Source: an uncultured Bacteroidales bacterium (GTDB lineage: Bacteria; Bacteroidota; Bacteroidia; Bacteroidales; Muribaculaceae). From it: 60,681 nucleotides of DNA. The notes under the pieces were generated by a model that was not told the DNA's origin, made no database searches, and saw only the letters and a list, made by a program, of their open reading frames with translations. The stretch is taken from the NCBI GenBank assembly GCA_947072905.1, contig CAMTKF010000008.1, positions 1 to 60,681 of the forward strand, read 5' to 3'. Below, one piece after another: positions 1 through 52,302 of this stretch. The first letter of the stretch is position 1; every line of letters begins with the position of its first letter. Position numbers and translations under genes: made by a program.

Positions 1-72
1 AAGAGCGAAGTCGAGGGTGTCTTTTGAAACATCACACCCTACGAAATGTTTGTAATTTGACAAATCTTTCAT
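1..72 (-). CDS. IS110-family transposase, N-terminal 24 codons (partial)
   Basis: Reading leftwards from the ATG at 72-70 gives MKDLSNYKHFVGCDVSKDTL followed by DFAL. This matches the start of the DEDD (RuvC-like) catalytic domain of IS110 transposases, where the Asp of the VGxDVSK motif is the first catalytic acidic residue. These enzymes are RNA-guided serine recombinases working with a bridge RNA (established for IS621). The gene runs off the left edge, so completeness and the C-terminal Tnp20 serine domain cannot be judged. Expression probably comes from the promoter at 291-298, which would read through the guide-RNA region first. Confidence 0.85.
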   Translation of the reverse strand, partial: MKDLSNYKHFVGCDVSKDTLDFAL

Positions 73-79
73 AACTTTG
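49..79 (+). promoter_or_regulatory. Perfect consensus promoter antisense to transposase start
   Basis: The plus strand has TTTG at 49-52, 19 bases, then TAACTTTG at 72-79, the full Bacteroidota consensus. It lies inside and just upstream of the transposase start and fires rightwards, so a transcript from about 85 would be antisense to the bridge RNA. CTTTGCAGACG at 75-85 is the exact reverse complement of 285-295, so both ends of the RNA region carry the same promoter-end sequence facing inward. Confidence 0.4.
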
Positions 80-85
80 CAGACG

Positions 86-286
86 TTATAATTAGACAAA
101 AATGTTGAATTCATCCATAACTTTTATTAGACATTAAGGTCTAGAAATCTAGCTTGATGTGTTCAACAAATAAGACAGAGTCGGACTTTAACCGGGTATG
201 GCCCTTTTGGCTAGCTACTAATTAAGGTCACCGCCTCTGTCTTTCTATTTAACAATTCAGAGAGCAAATGTTAACTCTGAATCTCG
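86..286 (-). ncRNA. Candidate IS110 bridge RNA (donor/target guide RNA)
   Basis: On the minus strand the region folds by eye into three parts in the order known for IS621 bridge RNA. First, a 5' stem-loop: 282-275 pairs with 262-255 (ATTCAGAG/CTCTGAAT, 8 bp). Second, a large loop closed by 242-235 with 180-173 (AGACAGAG/CTCTGTCT, 8 bp), the proposed target-binding loop. Third, a loop closed by 168-162 with 109-103 (TGTTGAA/TTCAACA, 7 bp), the proposed donor-binding loop, with an inner hairpin at 152-141. In the target loop, TAGTAGCT (220-213) equals the flanking target sequence at 308-301, and CATACCCGG (200-192) equals 394-402 of an intact repeat copy on the opposite strand, so the two guides bind opposite target strands. 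In the donor loop TAAAAG (126-121) is complementary to the element end CTTTTA (302-297). The ends of the RNA are estimated. Confidence 0.75.
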
Positions 287-290
287 TCTG

Positions 291-298
291 CAAAGGTA
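291..298 (-). promoter_or_regulatory. -7 box at the element end (junction promoter half)
   Basis: The minus strand reads TACCTTTG here, a perfect TAnnTTTG -7 box placing transcription start near 286, just before the 5' hairpin of the guide RNA. The expected -33 TTTG would lie near 318-321, outside the element, and is absent there. In a circularised element the right end would supply that position, so a complete promoter might form only at the joined ends. That last step is inference, by analogy with IS621. Confidence 0.55.
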
Positions 299-301
299 AA
301 A

Positions 302-497
302 GCTACTAGCTTGCAGGCCTCCTGCGGATGCCATATTCTTGGGAGGGACGTTCTGCAACACCCACCCACGCTACGGCTACGCCTGCGGTCGTACATACCC
401 GGCTACTAGCTTGCAGGCCTCCTGCGGATGCCATATTCCCGATTCTCGGGGTGTTACGGTATTTGCAGACATCCGGATGTCATATTCCCGAAAAAGT
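302..497. repeat. Intergenic repeat, copy A (target of the IS110 element)
   Basis: A 37-base unit beginning GCTACTAGCTTGC and ending GCCATATTC occurs at 302-338 and again exactly at 402-438. A related end, TGCAGACATCCGGATGTCATATTC in two overlapping parts, follows at 465-488. Between the direct copies lie segments (CGTACATACCCGG) shared with the copies at 10305-10570 and 51908-52175. No open reading frame is supported. The first unit is interrupted by the IS110 left end. Confidence 0.75.
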
Positions 498-506
498 CGG
501 AGGTTT

Positions 507-953
507 CTAAAACGGCAGGTCTTCTTTGTTGATGTAGCGTGAGGTTTTGTCTACGAGGTAGCGGGCGAGGGTGCGGGCCCAGGGGTGGGGGTTGGATGAG
601 CATTCGTTTTCGAGGATTGATACGGCTTGCCAGAAGCATATCACTGCGCCTGTGAATTTGAGCAGGTGTACCCACTCGCCCACCACTACGTTTTCTACCA
701 GGGCAGCGAGGGCGAGTACTGCGTAGATCTTGGTGAGTGTGCGGATTACCTTGCCGAAGCGGGCCGAGCTGAACTTCAACTGCTGACGTGCCGAGGGGAT
801 GTTGCGGCCTATGCGGCCGGCAAGTCGGCGGGCCGACCATACGTCGGCCAGAACCATGGCTGTGCAGGCCGCTGCTACCGGCAGGGCCGGGCCGAATACT
901 GTCCATGACCAGCCAGCGAGGGCCACGAATACTGATTTTGCGAAATTGTACAT
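507..953 (-). CDS. Small membrane protein, phage-holin-like
   Basis: This 148-residue protein begins MYNFAKSVFVALAGW and has a hydrophobic segment at about residues 10-38, an amphipathic basic stretch (ARRLAGRIGRN), then a second pair of hydrophobic stretches near residues 70-115. This resembles the phage-type holin family proteins found as stand-alone chromosomal genes in Bacteroidales. An upstream in-frame start at 1022 would lie before the -7 box at 974-981, so the start at 953 is preferred. No endolysin or phage genes are adjacent, so a lysis role is not supported. It is convergent with the repeat and divergent from the AraC gene. Confidence 0.6.
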   Translation of the reverse strand: MYNFAKSVFVALAGWSWTVFGPALPVAAACTAMVLADVWSARRLAGRIGRNIPSARQQLKFSSARFGKVIRTLTKIYAVLALAALVENVVVGEWVHLLKFTGAVICFWQAVSILENECSSNPHPWARTLARYLVDKTSRYINKEDLPF

Positions 954-10168: not shown

Positions 10169-10304
10169 ATTTTTTTAAATTTAAAATTTAGAATTATCTA
10201 TTAAGTTCTGAGATATATGCAAGCCCAAGTTCTTGAGTTATAGAGCTTGGGCTATCCTCCACCCCACTATACGCCACATCGGAAACCCTCCGCCACGCGG
10301 TATC

Positions 10305-10570
10305 GGGAATATGACATCCGGCAGGATGTCTGCCATACCGTAACCGGGCATGTACGACCGTAGGAAGGACATGCCCGGGGACAATGACCTCATAGTAGCA
10401 TCCGGAGGATGCAGTATAAGCTACCGCGATAACACGCTGTATATAAGGTGGTTTATACCGCATCCTCCGGATGCTTCTACTCCTGCACAGCCTACCGGGC
10501 ATGCCCTCCCTACTGTCGTGCATACCCGGTTAAGGTATTTGCAGACATCCTCAGCCGGATGTCATATTCT
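10305..10570. repeat. Intergenic large inverted repeat, copy B
   Basis: The left arm (about 10307-10380, starting GAATATGACATCCGGC) and right arm (about 10495-10569, ending GCCGGATGTCATATTC) are imperfect reverse complements over about 75 bases. The middle holds two self-complementary 15-mers, GCATCCGGAGGATGC (10398-10412) and GCATCCTCCGGATGC (10460-10474), which are also complementary to each other. An RNA copy would form a long hairpin. It shares arm sequence with copies A and C and contains no supported gene. It occupies most of the 580-base gap between pdxB and the GH29 gene. Confidence 0.8.
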
Positions 10571-51824: not shown

Positions 51825-51907
51825 ACAACTATTTTTATTATTTACAATGATTTATGCGAAAAAAATAGGAACTTTTTGATTTATGTGGGGATGTATGCTG
51901 TTGTATC

Positions 51908-52175
51908 GGGAATATGGCATCCGCAGGAGGCCTGTTACACCGTAACCCGGTATGCACGACCGCAGGGAGGGCATGCCGGGTAGGCAGTCCGTCAGGTGGT
52001 GGCATCCGGCAGAATGCGGCATATAAGTCCGGATATATATGGTGACGCCGTTGCCTATGCTGCATCCTTGACGGATGCCATCGCTTATGGATGCCTGTCC
52101 GGGCATGCCCTGCGCTGCGCGCGTGCATACCGCGGTTACGGTATTTGCAGACATCCTCAGCCGGATGTCATATTC
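51908..52175. repeat. Intergenic large inverted repeat, copy C
   Basis: The left arm (from 51908, GGGAATATGGCATCCGCAGG) and right arm (to 52175, GCCGGATGTCATATTC) are imperfect reverse complements, with matched inner segments GGTATGCACGACCGCAGGG and GGGCATGCCC. The centre has ATCC/GGAT-rich palindromic pieces. Its left edge equals the reverse complement of the unit in copy A (GAATATGGCATCCGCAGGAG). It lies in the 609-base gap between the leucine-rich-repeat and thioredoxin genes. No gene is supported. Confidence 0.8.
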
Positions 52176-52302
52176 CTTAAGATTGCGAAAAAATCTATAA
52201 AGATACTACACTCACACCCCCAAATGCAAATATTTTAGTTCGGAAATAGTGCGGGTATTCAAAAACCGCACTGTTTTCGAACTTTTTGATGCGAATATAC
52301 CT

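Follow-up and report, generated by a model that had tools for sequence, protein, structure and literature searches.

Results

An IS110-group element is cut by the contig edge

The window, by which we mean the whole stretch of 60,681 nucleotides analysed from an uncultured Bacteroidales genome (G000:C8), begins at a contig edge inside an IS110 element. Along the minus strand, a repeat flank down to position 303 is followed by a shared C, the element from its first base at 301, an RNA region, the recombinase start at 72 and the edge at position 1 (Table 1). We read positions 1-301 of the minus strand as the left end of an IS110-group element truncated by that edge. The first catalytic aspartate (motif GCDVS) was placed within the gene fragment by alignment with relatives (A1). 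The rest of the element, from this or another copy, lies on contig C9 of the same genome, beyond a short unsequenced gap: the recombinase continues at 2-922 (P0001), and the right end extends to base 1141, followed by CGGGTATG. Non-coding DNA amounts to 229 bases on the left (301 - 72) and about 219 on the right (C9 923-1141). The long non-coding left end with an RNA upstream of the gene places the element in the IS110 group rather than IS1111, and matches of our RNA model in the elements sit upstream of the recombinase gene.

Table 1. Features of the element and its target in the window
Feature	Position	Strand	Basis or remark
Recombinase gene, 5' end	1..72	-	24 codons, MKDLSNYKHFVGCDVSKDTLDFAL; cut by contig edge; alignment with relatives (A1)
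Predicted bridge RNA	103..283	-	5' hairpin 283-254, target-binding loop 243-172, donor-binding loop 168-103; fold, covariance model matches, pair counts
Right donor guide (RDG)	119..126	-	TAAAAG 126-121, then UU 120-119 fitting target, not donor
Left donor guide (LDG)	144..152	-	CTAGATTTC (152-144); identical to the element's right end CCTAGATTTC on C9
Right target guide	190..200	-	CATACCCGG 200-192, then UU 191-190 fitting target bases next to the shared C
Left target guide	214..220	-	TAGTAGC
Left tip of element	291..301	-	TTTTACCTTTG
Shared donor/target base C at crossover	302	-	junctions, intact sites
Left target half in flanking repeat	303..308	-	TAGTAG
Intact target site	394..408	-	TAGTAGCCGGGTATG; in neighbouring repeat copy (about 365-443)

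A pattern search of this genome found six such left ends and six such right ends. Every one of their contigs breaks off within the element, as the contigs of a collapsed repeat would; the two ends of one copy never share a contig. We put the copy number at about six. On one contig (L040, G000:C49, 189-300) two left ends lie head to head, forming a short palindrome flanked by two target-like sequences, with neither gene nor right end; it is either a mini-derivative or what an aberrant recombination left behind. In truncated elements of a relative (L127, G080:C5, about 1500-1600; L162, G080:C21), the far junction falls at a TAAAAG-type string inside the element, which there adjoins a second flank resembling the target. 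The reverse complement of this string, CTTTTA, resembles the element's own tip, and it may be that the RDG gene serves there as a cryptic element end.

A preliminary description of the locus had expected an IS110 catalytic domain beyond the left edge, and the recombinase continuing on C9 indeed scores over the cut-offs of Pfam PF01548 and PF02371 as well as NCBIfam IS110 model NF033542. Its nearest solved relatives are the transposases of IS621 (E 4.4e-33) and ISCro4 (1e-31). P0001 residues E41, D81, D84 and S223 are invariant in alignment A1 and align to the IS621 catalytic residues; by its predicted DEDD RuvC-like domain and conserved serine, the protein is a member of the IS110 family. Searched with P0001 alone, the genome contig and viral contig collections gave no confirmed relative; searched with A1, the former gave four loci and the latter zero. 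In the plasmid collection 544 records match P0001, every one at less than 60% identity. Relatives in named records come from Barnesiella sp., Duncaniella sp. and Bacteroidales MAGs.

The left end is predicted to encode a bridge RNA

Unconstrained folding of 286-90 gave -49.6 kcal/mol (z -2.95), with 1 of 200 shuffles equally good, and recovered the order of 5' hairpin, target loop and donor loop proposed in the preliminary description. Two outer stems also formed when six relatives' RNAs (G618, G654, G317, G353, G053 and the second G289 element) were folded alone, with z-scores from -2.18 to -5.68. In an alignment of 11 sequences (A5), 97.2% of 318 cells are paired and 22 of 29 pairs are changed on both sides, compared with 5.6 for shuffled and no more than 8 for slid versions, although these counts lean towards structure because A5 was fitted to an RNA model that 5 of its 11 rows had built. 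A5 omits G080 and G237 (damaged or cut) and three distant elements (G235, G175, G356). Five elements went into the RNA model, which matched 13 of the 397 genomes in a family sample and 3 of the 393 in an order sample, G000 being among both; an Rfam covariance search with E up to 10 returned nothing relevant. The modelled architecture, a 5' stem-loop and two hairpins with internal loops, is that of an IS110-type bridge RNA.

The guides match junctions and intact target sites

The preliminary description's reading of CATACCCGG and of a 15-base site in the intact repeat holds, the site reading TAGTAGCCGGGTATG from 408 to 394. It had also equated TAGTAGCT (220-213) with the flank at 308-301. The identity stands for TAGTAGC (220-214 and 308-302); the final T (RNA position 213, DNA position 301) does not belong to the target, because 301 is the element's first base and intact sites carry C there. 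In the donor loop, TAAAAG is reverse-complementary to the C|TTTTA of the left end, as proposed, though donor and target share one C and not the CT core that had been assumed. The left donor guide, whose partner lies outside the window, had gone unrecognised; CCTAGATTTC occurs in all 19 right ends kept from a pattern collection of ends (2 of 21 matches were set aside as not being element ends).

The six left ends of G000 read [CT]T[AC]GTARC before TTTTACC. All six right ends read CCGGGTAWG after GATTT (W being T in five and A in one), which bears out the predicted other half of the repeat, CGGGTATG, in the right flank. The genome holds 19 exact TAGTARNNGGGTAWG sites, all with CC at the free positions (about 0.3 expected by arithmetic with equal base use). 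At up to 2 mismatches the pattern total of 151 falls below that of a backward-read control (262), so the signal is confined to the exact sites. These results confirm the earlier observation and support its interpretation as a putative bridge RNA whose guides match the insertion site.

The target lies in a many-copy repeat

Window positions 1-600 gave 63 matches in the genome, element ends included, and the flank is therefore a many-copy repeat. More copies of the repeat arm, in opposite orientations as in REP mosaics, lie at 10302-10364, 10529-10569, 51905-51966 and 52135-52176. Genes for Y1/IS200-like transposases lie near targeted repeats (L033, G000:C9, 1491-1913; L093, G266:C13, 1496-1936); those near the G000 C9 repeat and the G266 element exceed the cut-offs of PF01797 and NF033573 and score 27.4 and 30.3 bits with the REP-specific NF047646 (cut-off 80). 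The idea that each target forms the base of a perfect hairpin did not hold up: at 4 of 13 right flanks at most 35 of 1000 shuffles did as well, and at the other nine at least 100. One right end (L132, G080:C52) apparently lies in a reading frame that by eye resembles another transposase, an insertion outside the repeat.

Target guides of relatives vary with their flanks

Left and right ends were gathered by pattern from ten genomes, and 11 guides were compared with the flanks at 7 positions on the left, not counting the constant C, and at 6 on the right, using 10 elements on the left and 9 on the right and means over distinct flanks. Cognate matches averaged 6.23 of 7 on the left and 4.89 of 6 on the right, against 3.16 and 2.17 for non-cognate pairs. 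None of 200,000 permutations did as well on either side, a count that overstates the case since related elements are not independent. The cognate guide ranked first for 10/10 left and 8/9 right flanks (G007 came second behind G000); without position 8 it ranked first for 8/10 on the left (G000 and G080 second).

All guides were read from a single structural place, chosen after the first matches were known. Set aside were the G000 C49 fold-back (two left ends), G080 C1 and C21 (degenerate), G174 C91 (guide off the contig) and the left end of G266, whose 5 flank bases all match its guide; on the right, the G174 C3 and G317 C58 matches are not element ends. Of the two G289 elements, element a was given the sole right end once its match was known; for the G080 C49 flank the guide of C69 was used; and G618 and G654, found after the permutation test, are not part of it. 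The distant G235, G175 and G356 elements stand outside all counts; G235 fits in part, judged by eye, and G356 does not fit.

Individual elements illustrate the pattern. G053 has guide GTACGGAC and three flanks reading GTACGGAC, and its right guide and flank both read GTGCCTT. In G353 guide GTAGGGAC faces five left flanks reading GTAGGGAC; these have little in common outside the target motif, implying separate insertions. The two G289 elements carry differing guides, one being TGAGTAAC with flanks TGGGTAAC (twice) and TCAGAAAC, the other TTGTTAGC with flank TTGTTAGC. Matches are poor on the left for G007 C39 (4/7), G080 C49 (4/7) and G289 C10 (5/7), and on the right for G266, G353 and G080 C52 (4/6 each). 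The G174 guides have no site with fewer than 2 mismatches in that genome (56% complete); the predicted site has 8 pattern matches, of which 3 carry 2 mismatches and 5 carry 3 (control, 3 matches), and none of the 5 match contexts inspected shows a flank-like repeat.

Donor guides CTAGATTTC and TAAAAG are unchanged in nine elements with an intact donor loop, G000 included. In G618 the donor guide differs along with the ends: its LDG and right end both hold TTAGAAT, that end having been located through the guide match (the last 470 bases hold C-GGAAC at 2 places, once preceded by TTAGAAT). The preliminary description had counted homologues that keep their loops at unrelated sites as evidence against itself; what we find are target loops that vary with the flanks. 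Fixed donor guides and target guides varying with flanks are the covariation of an IS110-type bridge RNA, as far as sequence can tell.

Donor and target share a single C

At left junctions the target runs up to the C and is followed by element bases; at right junctions element TTTC is followed by target. Crossover at or beside one shared C follows from left junctions continuing as element and right junctions as target. The target base after the C is free (the G000 target reads RCC), and in the G654 left end C, not T, follows the shared C. With only the C in common, donor and target appear to lack the CT core of IS621-like elements.

In IS621, according to the available text of PMC11208158, the loop bases adjoining the core are paired to the other DNA once strands have been exchanged. 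We scored two such bases in each loop against one hand-entered flank per element (the commoner flank for G007), as raw counts without a shuffle comparison. The two donor-loop bases beside the C-pairing base fit the target in 11/11 and 10/11 elements and the donor in 0/8 and 1/8; for the two bases of the target loop the figures are 11/11 and 11/11 against the target and 0/8 and 1/8 against the donor. The dinucleotide is the same in both loops of 10/11 elements: UU for A-R targets, UC for G-A (G053, G353) and CA for T-G (G618). Independent changes among these dinucleotides are few, and the UC of G053 and G353 may represent one event. A donor loop that tracks the target agrees with the covariation described for IS621 (PMC11208158, in part); a target loop that does so too is unlike IS621 and a feature of the Bacteroidales element.

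A promoter is predicted at the circle junction

TACCTTTG at 298-291 corresponds to the -7 half of a Bacteroidota-type promoter, and in the predicted circle the right end supplies the other half. In Bacteroides, according to the accessible portion of PMC7366714, promoters carry TAnnTTTG at about -7 and, at about -33, a TTTG that has not been observed in Flavobacterium. A TTG-N20-TAnnTTTG geometry was present in 10/10 predicted circle junctions tried, a raw count without a chance control; in 9/10 the -33 half is just TTG, 3 of the 4 TTTG bases. For IS621 a sigma-70-like promoter is described at the joined ends (PMC11208160, partial text). By analogy, the junction promoter would be the same device in the host's promoter language.

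Discussion

The anatomy, both flanks, the guide-flank covariation, the RNA structure and the promoter geometry are all read from the sequences. As a whole they are best explained by an IS110-group insertion sequence with a bridge RNA specifying both its target and its own ends, which we hold to be very probably correct. For transcription, expression, circle excision, catalysis, integration and the order of strand exchange, we infer the following course. The recombinase would excise the element as a circle, and joining of the ends would create the promoter (TTG-N20-TACCTTTG), from which the bridge RNA would be transcribed from the left end. The donor loop would pair with the circle junction (CTAGATTTC/TTTTA); the target loop would bind the edge of the many-copy REP-like repeat, pairing there with TAGTARC/CGGGTATG. 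Strands would be exchanged beside the single shared C, and the donor-loop UU, fitting the target bases beside the C, would hold the target strand after exchange. Relatives would reach other sites through re-coded target loops with unchanged donor guides.

The matches could instead be a by-product of a left end that captured pieces of the repeat, with the recombinase finding its site by protein-DNA contacts alone. Capture is conceivable for a many-copy flank, and certain copies match their guides poorly, yet such an origin is highly improbable given two guide pieces on opposite strands on either side of one loop, relatives' guides that vary with their own flanks while nearly all else is constant, and the same arrangement of the donor loop with the element's own ends. 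It is hardly more credible that the region is a leader RNA regulating recombinase translation rather than a guide. It does lie directly upstream of the recombinase start codon, and ISPpu9, an insertion sequence of REP sequences, is reported as small-RNA regulated (PMC8450116, partial text), but a leader leaves the guide-flank covariation and the fixed donor guides unexplained; the two roles could coexist.

A one-base core in this Bacteroidales branch is put forward less surely than the other steps. The available text on IS621 describes a CT core with an almost invariant T (PMC11208158), and cleavage after that T. Our elements might use CT in the IS621 register (C8-T9), the one-base appearance arising from mismatch repair after the exchange: the donor reads C-T in 10/10 predicted circle junctions, and the handshake bases directly adjoin the base pairing with the shared C, like C8 in IS621. 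Against this, all 19 intact G000 sites read CC, G654 departs from T after the shared C, and repair would have to favour opposite senses at the two ends, since left junctions always run on with donor bases and right ones with target. We thus regard the CT register as unlikely, and less likely than a one-base core.

The fuller proposal, to which we give an even chance, is that this branch combines one-base recombination with a donor-loop copy of the target loop's two target-reading bases, the target strand being passed from loop to loop. If so, natural retargeting would need matched changes in both loops, which would not be independent modules; the handshake model of strand exchange could be tested cheaply on the matched dinucleotides. 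Were a single C enough as core, the CT constraint on IS621 sites would be loosened in this branch. Should the mechanism merely be that of IS621, the element would still be an ordinary, well-documented new member, and the relatives form a natural series of re-coded bridge RNAs, their donor parts nearly constant, in gut Bacteroidales.

The preliminary description had called element, target and guides new. The element is new, as are the host group (as far as the literature found goes), the one-base core reading and the predicted junction promoter; REP targeting and the guided mechanism are known, the latter published in 2024 (PMC11208160, PMC11208158, PMC11187229; partial texts). Our search for bridge RNA or IS110 in Bacteroid- taxa, with most subscription papers outside it, returned only one review. 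IS110 elements that insert at a set place in many-copy palindromic repeats, namely ISPa11, ISPpu9, ISPpu10 and ISRm19, have long been known (PMC1525189, in the part available), so the kind of target is not new. They resemble the Bacteroidales element in repeat targeting; by their descriptions, proteobacterial hosts and other repeats set them apart. The seekRNAs of ISEc11 and ISXne4 (IS1111 group) show natural redirection among relatives through changed guide bases, the likeness to our series being retargeting by such changes; they differ in belonging to the IS1111 group, with subterminal inverted repeats and a guide order reversed relative to IS110 (PMC11187229, available sections).

The closest parallel is IS621 of Escherichia coli, described in the accessible text as having a DEDD and serine recombinase, an RNA in the left end, a REP target and a promoter at the joined ends (PMC11208160, PMC11208158). 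Recombinase type, left-end RNA, the order of 5' hairpin, target loop and donor loop, the placing of each loop's two guides on opposite strands and a REP-like target are held in common. The Bacteroidales element differs in its one shared C instead of CT, its predicted promoter of Bacteroidota type instead of sigma-70-like, its other target and its distant recombinase. From its sequence, it appears to represent a well-supported variant branch of the RNA-guided recombination known from IS621.
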